A stretch of 20,304 bases of DNA from positions 1 to 20,304 of the IMG/VR virus record IMGVR_UViG_3300031857_001738; one strand, given 5' to 3'. How positions within the stretch are numbered: position 1 is the first letter of the stretch; every line of letters starts with the position of its first letter. Below are positions 3,051-20,240 of this stretch, piece after piece. This stretch comes from a virus. A program made the position numbers and the translations under genes. The notes under the pieces were generated by a model. The model worked only from the letters and a program-made list of their open reading frames with translations. It was not told where the DNA came from and searched no databases.

Positions 3051-3501
3051 GAGGGGTGACCAGGATGACAACCTTCCTCCGGTCTGTCTTGTTGTGTGTC
3101 ATCTCGACAGACTTTACGCTAGATCCTGTCATGCAGTCGATTACTCCAGCCCTCCAGAGGATGCGAACGCAAACATCTAGGAACGCACTGTAGTCCTGGA
3201 TGCCGTATGTATCCTCTTTGACGATGGATAGTTTAACTGCCTTTAGGGGGAGGAACTTGAGACTGGTGGAGATCGTTGCAGCGATGCGATACATCGCTGC
3301 GCTAGCATCTCTCTTCTGTACGATTTCTCCATGCTCCCCTTTAGCCGTCATGCTTTCCGGCATAAAGGGATCGTTGATTATGATCCTGATCGGTTGTCCT
3401 TTGCGGGGGAGGATGCGTTCCTCAGGTTCTTCTGCGATAGCGTCAGGGTTTCCCATCTGCCATCCCACTGGGTACTTGTCCCGTTTCTTAGATACTGCCA
3501 T
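2992..3501 (-). CDS. Hypothetical protein, possibly RusA-like resolvase fold
   Basis: 169 residues starting MAVSKKRDKY. This ATG has a good ribosome site (CAGGAGA, spacing about 6), which is better than the longer upstream frame. Residues about 85-150 contain a predicted strand, then QDYSAFLDVCVRILWRAGVI and a strand rich in Val. This loosely follows the RusA layout (strand, D-x-D helix, acidic turn, strand). Only scattered Asp residues (D103, D109, D122) could serve as metal ligands, so catalytic competence is doubtful. The gene is the last of the leftward recombination operon. Its 5' part overlaps the end of the M15 peptidase frame by 124 bp, and its 3' end overlaps the + strand virion gene tail-to-tail by 59 bp. 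Coding is likely; function is a guess. Confidence 0.7.
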   Translation of the reverse strand: MAVSKKRDKYPVGWQMGNPDAIAEEPEERILPRKGQPIRIIINDPFMPESMTAKGEHGEIVQKRDASAAMYRIAATISTSLKFLPLKAVKLSIVKEDTYGIQDYSAFLDVCVRILWRAGVIDCMTGSSVKSVEMTHNKTDRRKVVILVTPLKTREVLIDQLENEAATLI

Positions 3502-3842: not shown

Positions 3843-4291
3843 TAGGCTCCGGTCGAACCGAAGCCTCCTGCTCCTCTGTCGGTAGACGATAGTGCTTCGG
3901 CGGTTTCAAACTCGATCTCTTCGTATTGTGCCACTACCATCTGAGCGATGCGAGTTCCCTTCTCGATCATCAACGATTGATTGCCGACCTGCTTGTACCC
4001 GTTCCACAGAAGGATGACGCCGATCTCCCCCCGGTAGGAGGGGTCAATCGTGCCAGGAGCATTTAGGACAATCACTCCCTGCTTCAGTGCCATGCCTGAA
4101 CGAGAGCGGATCTGCGCCTCGTAGCCTGGAGGAAGTTCGATAGAGAGGCCAGTCTTTACCAGCAACGGTTCTCCAGGAACAAGGTATACCGTCTCGTCGG
4201 CATAGAGGTCCATGCCTGCATCTTCGTCAGCGCCGTGTGCGTAGATCGGGATGCGAACAGATGCGTTTGAGGTCTTCAGTTTAATCTTCAT
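3842..4291 (-). CDS. dut: dUTP pyrophosphatase (dUTPase)
   Basis: 149 residues from MKIKLKTSNA. All five trimeric dUTPase motifs are visible: DAGMDLYA (24-31), RSRSGMA (62-68), GTIDPSYRGEI (80-90), GTRIAQMVV (112-120) and the C-terminal glycine-rich RGAGGFGSTG (139-148). It hydrolyses dUTP to dUMP and pyrophosphate, which keeps uracil out of phage DNA and supplies dUMP for dTTP synthesis. The in-frame upstream extension lacks family character, and an AAGGAAA site precedes the chosen ATG. The start overlaps the preceding small gene by 11 bp, and the stop shares TAATG with the peptidase, so translation is probably coupled. Normal length for the family. Confidence 0.95.
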   Translation of the reverse strand: MKIKLKTSNASVRIPIYAHGADEDAGMDLYADETVYLVPGEPLLVKTGLSIELPPGYEAQIRSRSGMALKQGVIVLNAPGTIDPSYRGEIGVILLWNGYKQVGNQSLMIEKGTRIAQMVVAQYEEIEFETAEALSSTDRGAGGFGSTGA

Positions 4292-4460
4292 TCTTTGTTT
4301 TGCTTTCCTTTGCGTAGCGAGTAGCCAGATCGAATACCCTAACGAGTTCACGTTCAACGTGTTCCGGCATGAGTTGGTTGGACAGCACCAGATCGGCGAG
4401 TGCTTTCATAGACTTGCCAATCAGCTTCTGCTTTCGTACTTGTGTTGTTACCTTCTTCAT
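4281..4460 (-). CDS. Small hypothetical protein (59 aa)
   Basis: Starts MKKVTTQVRK with an AAGGAGAT ribosome site 7 bases upstream, one of the better sites in this operon. The protein is basic at the N-terminus and then amphipathic helical (ALADLVLSNQLMPEHVEREL), ending in a Lys/Glu-rich tail. It overlaps the 3' part of the membrane/coiled-coil gene by 107 bp in another frame and the dUTPase start by 11 bp. No family is recognised. The strong ribosome site and sensible composition make it more believable than a random frame. Confidence 0.6.
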   Translation of the reverse strand: MKKVTTQVRKQKLIGKSMKALADLVLSNQLMPEHVERELVRVFDLATRYAKESKTKNED

Positions 4461-10159: not shown

Positions 10160-11052
10160 TACGCAAACATCCCCTTCATCTGGTTGATGATCTCTTCGGC
10201 CTCGTCGCCAAGTACCTTGGCCTGGGTAGCAACATCTTTGCGGGTCGAGTCGTTCTCCCGCAGGTAGTCGGCATTGTACTGGCACAACTCTTCGTCGATG
10301 CGACGAGCGATGCTATCGAGCCGCTCATCGCCGCCGACATTCAGCCGGGGAAGAAGAGAGGCAAGCTCCCGGATGTTCTCTACAAGCGAATCGCGGAAGG
10401 CCCCGGCACGTTCTCCCGTGTACCCCGTCAGCCTCTCGTGCATATGCTGGCACTGTTGCTGGACCCTCTCGAAGAGATCGACGCAAGCGGAGTTGTAGTT
10501 GTGCGACAGACGCTTCTGTAGATCCTGCTCCATCTGCTTCATCACATCCTTGCCCAGGGCAACTCGGAAGTCTCCAGACTCAGGCACCGGGGAGAAGCTG
10601 ATCTCCCACGAGAACTTGCTACGGATGGACTCGACAGGCGGGAAGTCATCCTGATTGAACAAACCGTTGAGACGATACTTGGCCTCGTTGATTACGTCCG
10701 GGTACTGCTTGACGAAAGTATTGAGAGCCTCCTCGTGCTTCTGTCTAAATTTGGACATCTCCTCCTGGTACTTGTTGAAGTTGGCGACAGGGAGGATGCG
10801 GACGCCCTCGGCATCATGCCAAGGGAGCGTCTGCTCGTAGTGCCACGCCCGTGCCAGCGAGATGTTGCTGGACAATTCCGTCATATACCGCTTGCTGGCA
10901 AGCTGCTTGTTGAAGCGGCCCACCTCCCCAGCGTTGGCGTTTGCGCCGTGATTCTGTTCGACCTCGGCAGTGGCCTTCTTGTCGAACTTCCGCGCCGTCC
11001 ATTGCGCGACAGAGAACCGGACGAGGATCGCTTTCTCAGAAAGAATAGACAT
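10159..11052 (-). CDS. Unknown helical protein of the MoxR-VWA operon (DUF3150-like?)
   Basis: 297 residues, AAGGAGAT ribosome site. Mostly helical and charged, opening LSEKAILVRFSVAQWTARKFDKKA, with a central WHYEQTLPWHDAEGVRILP segment and C-terminal long helices. From memory such proteins (DUF3150-like) occur between MoxR-type ATPase and VWA genes in phages and plasmids; I hold that name loosely. It lies 24 bp after the ATPase gene and overlaps the VWA gene by TAATG, so the three are probably made in fixed ratio and act together, perhaps as substrate adaptor. An intragenic palindrome copy lies at 10743-10756. Confidence 0.75.
   Translation of the reverse strand: MSILSEKAILVRFSVAQWTARKFDKKATAEVEQNHGANANAGEVGRFNKQLASKRYMTELSSNISLARAWHYEQTLPWHDAEGVRILPVANFNKYQEEMSKFRQKHEEALNTFVKQYPDVINEAKYRLNGLFNQDDFPPVESIRSKFSWEISFSPVPESGDFRVALGKDVMKQMEQDLQKRLSHNYNSACVDLFERVQQQCQHMHERLTGYTGERAGAFRDSLVENIRELASLLPRLNVGGDERLDSIARRIDEELCQYNADYLRENDSTRKDVATQAKVLGDEAEEIINQMKGMFA
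10743..10756. repeat. Palindrome family, intragenic copy 2 (one mismatch)
   Basis: On the + strand GTCTAAATTTGGAC, inside the 297-residue gene. On the coding strand it encodes MSKFRQ. The 17-mer 10741-10757 is the exact reverse complement of 7942-7958. Confidence 0.6.
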
Positions 11053-17644: not shown

Positions 17645-17670
17645 ATAATCCTCCTAGCCTGTCTCTTCAG

Positions 17671-17712
17671 TGCGGGTAGGCTAATTCCCGCAGACACGGG
17701 TTATACCCGTGT
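17671..17712. repeat. Two adjacent hairpins after the Csx16-like gene
   Basis: TGCGGG / CCCGCA (17671-17692, 10-base loop) and the perfect ACACGGGT-TAT-ACCCGTGT (17694-17712). They lie between the Csx16-like gene stop (17719) and the next cluster. No U-run, so they are either weak terminators or RNA elements. Confidence 0.55.
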
Positions 17713-17718
17713 TTCGAC

Positions 17719-18033
17719 CTAGTACCCATCGCTGCGTGAGGTGGTCACGCAGTAGTCGAAAGCCATGACTACATACGCTTCCAGACGCGCACCAGCGGCG
17801 ACCATGTCGGCGGCGGTGTACTCCGCGCCGCGAGGCGGTGCGCCGGAGAACTCCACGGCGACGACCTCGTCTGCTAGTGCGGCGAGGGATAGCGGGATGT
17901 TACCCGCTACGACCTTGCCCCGGACATCGTCCGGGGTGGCGTTGCCCGTGATGACGGGTGCCGCCAGGAACCGGGCGTCATTGCGCCGGATGAAATCGAT
18001 AGCGGCAGGGTGCCGCGAAATGATTACGTACAT
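17719..18033 (-). CDS. Csx16-like (CRISPR-associated VVA1548 family) protein, putative type III anti-CRISPR
   Basis: 104 residues. The order of motifs follows the Csx16 family as I remember it: SRHPAAIDFI (6-15), GKVVAGNIPLSLAALA (39-54), PPRGAEYTAADM (67-77) and GARLEAYVV (81-89). The usual family pattern is SRHPGA, GDVVIGTLPVNLAA, RG-EL and GARLEEY. Csx16 proteins occur with type III CRISPR systems that signal with cyclic oligoadenylate, and recent work links them to breakdown of that messenger. In a phage with no CRISPR genes around, an anti-CRISPR role is the natural inference. GGAG lies 8 bases upstream. The start shares TAATG with a possible 31-codon leader. The last 14 residues look extra to the family. 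Confidence 0.75.
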   Translation of the reverse strand: MYVIISRHPAAIDFIRRNDARFLAAPVITGNATPDDVRGKVVAGNIPLSLAALADEVVAVEFSGAPPRGAEYTAADMVAAGARLEAYVVMAFDYCVTTSRSDGY

Positions 18034-18128
18034 TACATTTCTCCAATAGGTGAAGTGTCACCAATCAAGGGTATCCGAAGATACCCTTTGTTGATACCAC
18101 TTGAATTTCGCTCGCCTTTACTATCCAT
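18033..18128 (-). CDS. Possible 31-codon leader ORF coupled to the Csx16-like gene
   Basis: Starts MDSKGERNSSGINKGYLRIP and ends in TAATG, the same coupling seen throughout this block, with GGAAG just before the ATG. The hairpin 18067-18088 lies within it, so ribosome movement could open or close it. No family recognised and composition is not distinctive. It may be chance. Confidence 0.3.
   Translation of the reverse strand: MDSKGERNSSGINKGYLRIPLIGDTSPIGEM
18049..18088. repeat. Two hairpins in the leader of the Csx16-like gene
   Basis: GGTGA-AGTG-TCACC (18049-18062) and the perfect 9-bp stem AAGGGTATC-CGAA-GATACCCTT (18067-18088). Both would be in the 5' leader of a transcript entering the Csx16-like gene and in the start of any + strand transcript of the non-coding region. 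Confidence 0.6.
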
Positions 18129-18511
18129 ACTTCCGACAGCCGCTATTTTGTGGGTCTTTAATTCACTGTATAGTTTTATACCCCAACTACAGGTATACTT
18201 TGCTATCTCGTTTCACAACGGGTGAATTGCCCGTGGCTTGTCTCACGACAAATAGACCATCCGCACAACGGAGAACTATGCGATATAAGGGCGTGGCAGC
18301 ATCTATGCTGCCGGATAGGCTACCGTTTCTCTCACCTATCCACCATCACACTCTGTGTTCGAAGAGCTGTCACCTCTTACCGCGCTATTTAGCGCGAGTG
18401 TGTGGGCTATATTCGGTTGTCAAAGATCGAATCCCCTTCTGATCGGGGCTGGCGCAACCCGTATAGTTTCGTACGGGAATTGCATTTACCATCACTTCCC
18501 GTATGCTGTAT

Positions 18512-18551
18512 GTATAGTGCTATACGGCGTTCAGTGTATAGCGCTATACGG
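18512..18551. repeat. Iteron-like pair 1
   Basis: Two 16-mers, GTATAGTGCTATACGG (18512-18527) and GTATAGCGCTATACGG (18536-18551), 24 bp apart start to start. Each contains a palindromic GTATAG-CTATAC core. Confidence 0.8.
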
Positions 18552-18579
18552 GACGTGAATAAACAGCGTGTAAACGCGA

Positions 18580-18675
18580 GTATACGCGCTATAGGCTAGC
18601 GATTATCGCTAGCGTATAACGCTATACGGTGTTCAATGTATAGTGCTATACGGTTATGCCGAATAGCGCGTATAC
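18580..18675. repeat. Nested inverted repeats around iteron pair 2
   Basis: GTATACGCGCTAT (18580-18592) and its exact complement ATAGCGCGTATAC (18663-18675) enclose iteron pair 2. Just inside lies the perfect GCTAGCGA-TTA-TCGCTAGC (18595-18613). The segment could extrude as a cruciform or fold as one large RNA stem. Confidence 0.65.
18614..18653. repeat. Iteron-like pair 2
   Basis: GTATAACGCTATACGG (18614-18629) and GTATAGTGCTATACGG (18638-18653), again 24 bp apart, with a spacer (TGTTCAAT) nearly identical to that in pair 1 (CGTTCAGT). Together the pairs are two copies of a 40-bp unit. Confidence 0.8.
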
Positions 18676-18715
18676 AAAATGGAATAAGGGGACGCGGTTA
18701 CCCGCATCCCCTGCT

Positions 18716-18756
18716 AACTGCTAACGATACCGGAGTATCGTTATCAGTTATTTTTT
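18716..18756 (+). terminator. Intrinsic terminator, + strand
   Basis: AACTG (18716-18720) pairs with CAGTT (18745-18749); inside, after one mismatch, TAACGATAC (18722-18730) pairs with GTATCGTTA (18735-18743) around loop CGGA; then ATTTTTT (18750-18756). This is a textbook rho-independent terminator for rightward transcription. It overlaps the stop codon of the - strand gene 18748-19350. In the leftward direction no U-run follows. Confidence 0.8.
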
Positions 18757-19350
18757 GGCCGCTATCCCGGCAAATAGCGGAGCAAAGGCCTTGTCGCTCA
18801 TAATAATTCGGGCGAAATCCTCAACAGTTTTAACCGTTGAGGCGATCTTGCGGAGTCTCTTTAAATCGGCCGGAAGTTCCGCCTCCGCCTCCGCCTCTCC
18901 CTCTCCCTTGCCTTCTTCTATGGGTTCCCCGTTAATCAAACGGGACACGGCGTCCCGGAACTGGGAAACCGTGAGTTTCTCTTTAGTTTTACGAGCGATT
19001 AACTTCCGGATATCGTCGGCCATAATGGCCGCATCTTCAGCATTCTTGCCGAGCCGCGAAAGTTCCAGCGCACAACCAAAACCCAAGTCTGAAACTTCCG
19101 ACTTCTCAATTTTGGCATTCTCCATTAGGGCGCCTATGGCAGCATACTGATAAAACGCACCGTACGACAAACCTGGACCGTCCGGGCTATCAATAAATTT
19201 CTCTACACTTGAAAAACCCAGTTCGACATACTGACGTTCGCTTACAATCTGGTGCGCCGCAATGGCCATATCAGCGAGAATACCCGCCATTTTTTTGTTT
19301 GCGTTGCGGAGTATCTCCGCATTCTTTTCCGGTGCGATAACCTGATACAT
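18748..19350 (-). CDS. Putative DNA-binding regulator (200 aa)
   Basis: Starts MYQVIAPEKNAEILRNANKK with AGGAGAAAT upstream. Residues about 35-75 (IVSERQYVELGFSSVEKFID, then GLSYGAFYQYAAIG) look like a helix-turn-helix of the kind found in ParB-like and phage regulatory proteins. The rest is helical, with an acidic Glu/Ala/Gly linker (about 148-162) before a C-terminal helical domain. It diverges from the small terminase, and its promoter region has an inverted repeat, so autoregulation is likely. It is also the closest protein gene to the iterons and could bind them. Family not firmly recognised. Confidence 0.75.
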   Translation of the reverse strand: MYQVIAPEKNAEILRNANKKMAGILADMAIAAHQIVSERQYVELGFSSVEKFIDSPDGPGLSYGAFYQYAAIGALMENAKIEKSEVSDLGFGCALELSRLGKNAEDAAIMADDIRKLIARKTKEKLTVSQFRDAVSRLINGEPIEEGKGEGEAEAEAELPADLKRLRKIASTVKTVEDFARIIMSDKAFAPLFAGIAAKK

Positions 19351-19410: not shown

Positions 19411-19509
19411 GCGATAGATGGAATAGTTCCTAAAATTTTGTTAATCAAGTAATTTATTTGGTAGTGTGCTTTATGCTGTAAAGTGTATGGGGATGGTAGA
19501 GTGGATTAC

Positions 19510-20055
19510 ATGGCAAAGAAAATAGATCGAATAGCGGAATTAGAAAGATTAATGACGCCTAAACAGGTGAAGCTTGCGAGAGCGTTAGCCGCTGGAGGGA
19601 TCCCGAAGGTGCAAGCGTATAAACAGGTCTACGGATGGAATGGGAAGAGTGCAAATAGTGCGCAGGTTGCCGCAACTCGAGCGGCGGGGAACTCTAAGGT
19701 AAGTCTATTGGCGAGTGAGTTGAGAGATAGGGATAACAGCCTGTTATGGGCAGATAAGGAGAAGTTCCGAAAATGGCTCATGAAGGGCATCACCGATACA
19801 GCATCCACCACTGAATCAGATATTACCCGATTGAAAGCGCTGGAACTTGCGGGCCGGACCCGATACGCAAGTTTGTTCGAGGAACCGGCAGCAAATGAGA
19901 CCACTGCTCAAACCCATGGCGCGATAGTCGATGCAATCCGCGCCAAACTGCAAGCGTTGATCGGCGGTTCGCTTGCTCCGGGCGATGCTAGCCCCGGTAC
20001 CTTGACGCTGGAGGCGGTGGCAGAGGACCCCACGGGGGCAGGGGAGGGGGAGTAG
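19510..20055 (+). CDS. terS: Terminase small subunit
   Basis: 181 residues from MAKKIDRIAELERLMTPKQV. The N-terminal pattern LMTPKQVKLARALAAGGIPK followed by VQAYKQVYG is the helix-turn-helix of phage small terminases, which recognises the packaging site. AQVAATRAAGNSKVSLLASEL and the helical WADKEKFRKWLMKGI section fit the oligomerising core. The C-terminal tail (from about residue 135) is Ala/Gly/Pro/Glu-rich. The ATG is chosen over an upstream GTG because the family homology begins here; the ribosome site is weak (GAGTGG). The large subunit would be expected beyond the right edge. The 3' end runs into a G-quadruplex-type tract. Confidence 0.85.
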   Translation: MAKKIDRIAELERLMTPKQVKLARALAAGGIPKVQAYKQVYGWNGKSANSAQVAATRAAGNSKVSLLASELRDRDNSLLWADKEKFRKWLMKGITDTASTTESDITRLKALELAGRTRYASLFEEPAANETTAQTHGAIVDAIRAKLQALIGGSLAPGDASPGTLTLEAVAEDPTGAGEGE

Positions 20056-20058
20056 GGG
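20034..20058 (+). other. G-quadruplex motif over the terS stop
   Basis: Runs of G5 (20034-20038), G4 (20041-20044), G5 (20046-20050) and G4 (20055-20058) separated by 1-4 bases meet the usual G-quadruplex pattern on the + strand. The TAG stop lies at 20053-20055. Confidence 0.7.
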
Positions 20059-20240
20059 AGGTGCGGTGGTGTGTGTGTGTATAGTACTCCACACATCCGA
20101 TTCCACACATTTACCCCCCCCTTATTTCCCCCATCCCCTCCCTTTCTCTTCCACCTGCTCCCACCTAACCCCCCCCTTTACCATTTGGGTCCCCTGCTTG
20201 CGCCCAGATATATTTATTTCCACCTCGCTTCGCGGCAAAT
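20056..20240. other. Low-complexity non-coding stretch after terS
   Basis: Contains a GT-repeat (about 20070-20080), then C8 (20114-20121), C5 (20128-20132), C4 (20135-20138), C3 (20140-20142) and another C8 (20169-20176). The first four C runs form a G-quadruplex motif on the - strand. TGTGTG and CACACA segments (about 20070-20098) can pair. I see no gene. Homopolymer runs of this length are also prone to sequencing error. Confidence 0.6.

Follow-up and report, generated by a model that had tools for sequence, protein, structure and literature searches.

Five copies of a 14-base palindrome ahead of early phage genes, predicted to bind a small ParB-HTH-like protein

Introduction

Ahead of the early genes of an uncultured phage, known from a virus record, lies a non-coding region in which five copies of one 14-base palindrome stand next to the gene of a putative DNA-binding protein. 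What are these sites for? The window analyzed here is the whole stretch of this record, 20,304 bp long. A first-pass annotation of the sequence had proposed a replication origin, a partition site or a packaging site, with the neighboring 200-aa protein or the small terminase subunit as the ligand. The explanation that we favor, with moderate confidence, is that the array heads an early leftward operon and consists of predicted binding sites of a small, ParB-HTH-like phage protein.

Results

The GTATAnnnnTATAC sites form two pairs with a spacing of 24 bp, four sites in all, and a fifth, conserved site is located at 18168. The 16-mers start at 18512 (GTATAGTGCTATACGG), 18536 (GTATAGCGCTATACGG), 18614 (GTATAACGCTATACGG) and 18638 (GTATAGTGCTATACGG), exactly where the first-pass annotation had placed them. 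The palindromes are listed below together with their state in L003, the closest relative of the window.

18512..18525, minus strand: site P1 (GTATAGTGCTATAC), 24 bp from P2
18536..18549, minus strand: site P2, perfect 14-bp palindrome GTATAGCGCTATAC, extended unit 18530-18551
18614..18627, minus strand: site P3 (GTATAACGCTATAC), absent from L003
18638..18651, minus strand: site P4, extended unit 18632-18653, absent from L003
18168..18181, minus strand: lone fifth site with perfect arms, within the leader (GTATAAAACTATACAGTGAA, same extended motif), kept in L003
18459..18476, minus strand: degenerate sixth site; its L003 counterpart GTACAACACTGTAC, located 24 bp beyond the second copy, has perfect arms

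The sites are all oriented alike, on the minus strand, and belong to a directional extended unit, CCGTATAGnnCTATACASTGAA, whose strong matches within the 20-kb window occur in this intergenic region only. As the arm of a 5+4+5 palindrome, GTATA is found five times in the real sequence, and none of 200 dinucleotide shuffles of 18034-18747 gave even two. The proposed duplication of a 40-bp unit held as well, its two copies being identical at 35 of 40 positions, against 26 of 40 for the best of 60 shuffles. The repeats are real, and chance is excluded. An Rfam search over the array returned no credible family.

The expectation that such repeats should recur in close relatives was borne out by L003 (14.3 kb), whose 200-aa protein is 86% identical to that of the window. 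At the same locus, L003 carries a single tandem array in which three copies of the 22-24-bp directional unit follow one another at exactly 24 bp, and it has the lone site too; missing from it are the P3/P4 block and the terminator-like hairpin described below. The third copy of its array carries a paired change (GTACA...TGTAC); another paired change in L003 (GCTAACGAT/ATCGTTAGC) preserves the palindrome that lies centrally between the two pairs of the window.

The elements surrounding the array are as follows.

18580..18592, unstranded: left arm of a 13-bp perfect inverted repeat, arm kept in L003
18663..18675, unstranded: right arm of the same repeat, in the window only
18595..18613, unstranded: central palindrome GCTAGCGAT-T-ATCGCTAGC
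18687..18712, minus strand: 11-pair hairpin resembling an intrinsic terminator, separating the 200-aa gene from the array
18415..18428, minus strand: boxA-like antitermination signal GATCTTTGACAACC, conserved in L003, L007 and L037, weaker in others
18034..18414, minus strand: structured leader (RNA fold) of about 380 nt, from boxA to the first leftward gene
17719..18033, minus strand: first gene after the leader (Cas_VVA1548-like, PF09652), start of the leftward genes
18748..19350, minus strand: 200-aa protein, the likely ligand; its predicted fold is of the ParB/Noc DNA-binding (HTH) type, a CTPase domain is lacking, and among viral models it resembles DUF3102
19414..19463, unstranded: AT-richest 50 bp of the window (22% GC), between the 200-aa gene and terS
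19483..20055, plus strand: small terminase subunit gene terS (weak match in PHROG), running divergently from the leftward operon

On the minus strand, the 200-aa gene is followed by the terminator-like hairpin (18712-18687) and then by the array. The 13-bp perfect inverted repeat was confirmed, and the palindrome reported ahead of the second pair is present, with arms of 9+9 rather than 8+8. We take the signal at 18415-18428 to be boxA-like from its match to the boxA consensus. The RNA fold of 18034-18445 gave a z of -4.6. Extreme constraint on the leader, which is 99% conserved, was considered and rejected, as coding stretches of the window and L003 are likewise 98-100% identical.

Several further observations were made in and around the early genes. 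Long non-coding leaders headed by boxA occur in the window (18034-18428, minus strand) and also in L033, L034 and L044, differing by clade; none of them has an Rfam match, and they may represent a phage structured RNA. Candidates for type II hammerhead ribozymes lie between early genes in the window (17653-17719, minus strand), L007 (3656-3721), L028 (2128-2194), L033, L034 and L044, with scores of 31-42 bits, those of L007, L028 and L034 exceeding the Rfam gathering score of 37; L035 has a weak HDV-like ribozyme match (3286-3347, minus strand; 35.1 bits, gathering 44). A 16-bp palindrome, TGTCCAAATTTGGACA or with one mismatch, is present in the window at 10742, 12732, 13816, 14508, 14885, 15478, 16453 and 17259, mostly directly ahead of genes of the leftward operon, in a manner reminiscent of stoperators or translational hairpins; like positions in relatives hold the same palindrome or others (TTGTCTAGATTCTAGAC, GAGTCTCANTGTGAGACTC, GTCCAAATTTTGGAC). 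After terS, a G-rich and then a C-rich tract (20056-20200) is conserved in L003. In G003, about 1.1 kb of non-coding DNA (L027 1361-1640) holds three copies of a GCCTCAGGGCTGATAAACGTAAGCCGA-type repeat.

We then consider the 200-aa protein, which had been suggested as the natural ligand. A profile built from eleven of its homologues found no convincing relative among Pfam, PHROG and PDB sequences, and used as a query for further loci it found none new. The AlphaFold model of the window protein (pLDDT 84) had no significant Foldseek match in the PDB, and its structural neighbors in BFVD were viral models including DUF3102 proteins. By VIA-align, eleven ParB/Noc/Spo0J/SopB chains lead the comparison of the window model (Z 8.1-6.0, residues 24-142), the first unrelated row standing at 5.3; for the AlphaFold model of the L033 homologue, which is 18% identical, six ParB/Noc rows lead with a Z of 7.6, the next unrelated row being at 6.2. 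Z values near 8 are moderate for a fold comparison, and unrelated helical proteins can score as high. Profile comparison of the HTH family with the ParB HTH by hhalign was not significant (probability 0.1%). It is the fold that points, provisionally, to a ParB/Noc DNA-binding domain.

In the window and 13 related records no ParB_N CTPase domain (PF02195) was found, the control being detected in 11 of 14 genomes, and the 200-aa protein is too short to contain it. ParA (PF13614) was absent from 11 records, the window being a fragment, and no other segregation partner was found. Against 50,697 phage records, neither the nucleotide sequence of the region nor the HTH protein nor TerS gave a match, and a genome scan with the TerS alignment yielded no cellular relative.

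Relatives were gathered by a TerS profile search, which returned 23 loci. Among them the GTATA array is found in L003 only, and many others carry different palindromes at this locus. In six relatives (L033, L034, L035, L036, L039 and L044) we found an exact parS 16-mer, TGTTCCACGTGGAACA, which is the chromosomal parS of Pseudomonas putida and corresponds to parS2/parS3 of P. aeruginosa (PMC7022226, PMC4368675). Its positions, all in phage records in which ParA and the ParB CTPase domain were not detected, are given here.

L033 3443: exact parS 16-mer
L034 3959: exact parS 16-mer
L039 3019: exact parS 16-mer
L044 3947: exact parS 16-mer
L036 4462: exact parS 16-mer
L062 16628 (= L035): exact parS 16-mer

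Scanning of the window revealed no parS within 2 mismatches. The GTATAGCGCTATAC palindrome agrees with parS at 6-8 of 16 positions, and a kinship of the two is not compelling on this count. At the same locus, L007 has a repeated GTGGAACATC and no GTATA sites.

The half-sites of parS were compared over 2 kb beside terS in sixteen relatives, ten with a homologue of the 200-aa protein and six without. GTTCCAC half-sites are present at the locus in nine of ten other homologue-bearing records; GTTCCAC/GTGGAAC occurs 27 times in the ten homologue-bearing records against 2.4 expected, an 11-fold enrichment whose counts are not independent because the records are akin, so that p-values come out optimistic, and once in 12 kb in the six records lacking the homologue. 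Exceptions among the homologue-bearing records are L028/L045 and L038, with no half-site or one. In ParB, residue 173 (Arg; Gln in Noc), which follows the Ser of the recognition helix, contacts the site and helps to select it (PMC7383237). With the register inferred from the invariant Ser62 and a helix start at residue 63, the equivalent residue in the alignment is Arg in L033, L034, L039, L044, L037 and L007, Lys in L035, L036, L038 and L028, and Tyr in the window and L003. The clade of the window and L003 combines a Tyr in place of the parS-contacting Arg with a different palindrome.

With a predicted ParB/Noc-like fold next door and exact parS at the locus in homologous phages, the 200-aa product is a credible ligand of the array, and the earlier suggestion of a partition-type site was a good guess.

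We weighed this against a replication origin, in which the repeats would be iterons for an initiator and the long non-coding region, with its boxA leader RNA and repeats, the start of phage replication, possibly RNA-primed as in extrachromosomal mycobacteriophages. Repeated direct sites of the iteron type, for which about 17-22 bp is usual, are indeed present as a 22-24-bp directional unit in 4 + 1 copies; they are non-coding and sit where divergent transcription units meet, and the repeat type turns over fast between relatives. parS is typically near origins, an RNA-based phage origin beside parS has a precedent (PMC7157519), and L037 has at this locus GTGGAAC/GTTCCAC pairs together with seven TGTGGAWAA DnaA-like boxes, one of them exact. 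Against this, no recognized Rep or initiator gene adjoins the array and no DnaA-like boxes are found in this region of the window. The AT-rich segment that had been claimed was not found at the array, whose GC content of 45.7%, compared with 52.6% in the window, is not notably low, so the adjacent AT-rich unwinding element and DnaA boxes of an iteron origin are both lacking here; the AT-richest 50 bp lie about 740 bp away. Cumulative skew shows small changes only in the window and no switch at the homologous position in two larger relatives, G003 (probably complete, given a 127-bp end overlap) and G005. An origin is not supported by skew, DnaA boxes or AT-richness, is kept open by the DnaA-like boxes of L037, and appears unlikely overall.

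As an observation on L037 itself, arrays of DnaA-like boxes (TGTGGAAAA/TGTGGATAA) with 11-bp spacing occupy 4124-4446, and parS half-sites adjoin them within that intergenic locus.

About equally improbable is the idea that the 24-bp directional units are promoter/operator elements unrelated to the neighboring protein and serve a different regulator of the phage or an RNA polymerase modified by it. Every site points toward the leader, and the lone site is about 130 bp ahead of the first gene. Good sigma70-like promoters precede boxA or the first gene in at least five relatives, whereas a sigma70 scan gave no strong site over the array and, for the window and L003, no conspicuous one ahead of boxA. 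Promoters are seldom palindromic, however, and phage promoters tend to recur, while this motif is found nowhere else in 20 kb; a search for T7-type RNA polymerase had no match, but its control set matched nowhere either.

A cosB/pac packaging site bound by the small terminase subunit is very improbable. The start of terS is 0.8-1.0 kb from the array, and repeated TerS-binding sites near terS occur in other phages. The TerS of L007 is 81% identical to that of the window, but GTATA sites are absent from L007, so that their presence tracks the HTH protein rather than the terminase; the remaining TerS-bearing relatives, L003 excepted, also lack the repeats, and co-conservation of sites with TerS is thus not seen. 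Of the first-pass interpretation as a whole, the protein as ligand, the partition-type site and the repeats in a relative have found support, and the small terminase as ligand has not.

Just as improbable is chance or a functionless assembly duplication: the P3/P4 block and right 13-bp arm, lacking in L003, are perhaps in part a recent duplication, but the shuffle test speaks against chance, and the independently assembled L003 retains the unit, the 24-bp period and the lone site.

An integrase is encoded by five relatives and by neither the window nor the L003 fragments, which is uninformative for the array.

Discussion

In the explanation that we favor, the dyad-symmetric palindromes would be bound by the 18748-19350 product through its ParB/Noc-type DNA-binding domain, with no CTPase domain involved. 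Dimers would occupy the two 24-bp-spaced pairs and also the lone site, some 340 bp deeper in the leader, and a nucleoprotein complex would form where the leftward early transcription unit, with its boxA-bearing structured leader, begins. Such a complex could set the timing of transcription of this unit, much as nearby promoters are affected by KorB at OB sites or by ParB at parS, and may additionally mark the DNA as a centromere-like locus. We infer the binding, the direction of regulation and the cooperation between distant sites, and also the role of the complex, be it transcription control, centromere or origin. A spacing of 24 bp corresponds to 2.3 turns, so that neighboring dimers are not on one face of the DNA, which speaks against this explanation.

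More speculatively, and with considerable doubt on our part, the phages may form a lineage with a stripped-down ParB, reduced to its DNA-binding domain with neither CTPase nor ParA, combined with either the parS of the host chromosome or a re-specified palindrome array; at the segregation site of the host the phage would act by binding, mimicry or competition, and protein and site would switch specificity together. If true, these phages would possess a compact system whose ParB-type DNA-binding domain does without the CTP clamp considered central to ParB action, and their naturally matched partners, an Arg-type protein with parS and a Tyr-type protein with GTATAGCGCTATAC, would lend themselves to the study of switches in DNA-binding specificity. 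Given an exact chromosomal parS in phage genomes lacking ParA, one may also ask, and test, whether the ParB of the host is recruited or decoyed by phages.

As neither a CTPase domain nor sequence homology to ParB was found, we file the system as a ParB/KorB-like operator-centromere and not as ParABS. Among known systems, DUF3102-like phage proteins are similar as structural neighbors in BFVD, although a Pfam search of the 200-aa protein had no DUF3102 match, and the literature searched gave no function for them. The extrachromosomal mycobacteriophages (RedRock) likewise have repeated sites in a non-coding region, next to an RNA that is structured or non-coding, but they encode ParA and ParB, and their parS consists of 8-bp direct repeats, neither of which was found here (PMC7157519). 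Compared with ParB-parS and Noc-NBS, the phage has no ParB_N CTPase domain, ParA was not found, and the sites of the window are neither parS nor NBS; alike are the predicted fold of the DNA-binding domain, the 14-16-bp even-dyad palindromes near the gene and the exact parS in relatives, and sites of this sort can affect nearby transcription. KorB of IncP plasmids (RK2) differs in that it works as a CTP-dependent sliding clamp and has an N-terminal domain, which is missing in the phage protein, and no counterpart of KorA is known for the phage, but in KorB-OB, as is predicted here, a ParB-family DNA-binding domain acts at operator sites, where it silences promoters (PMC11790492).
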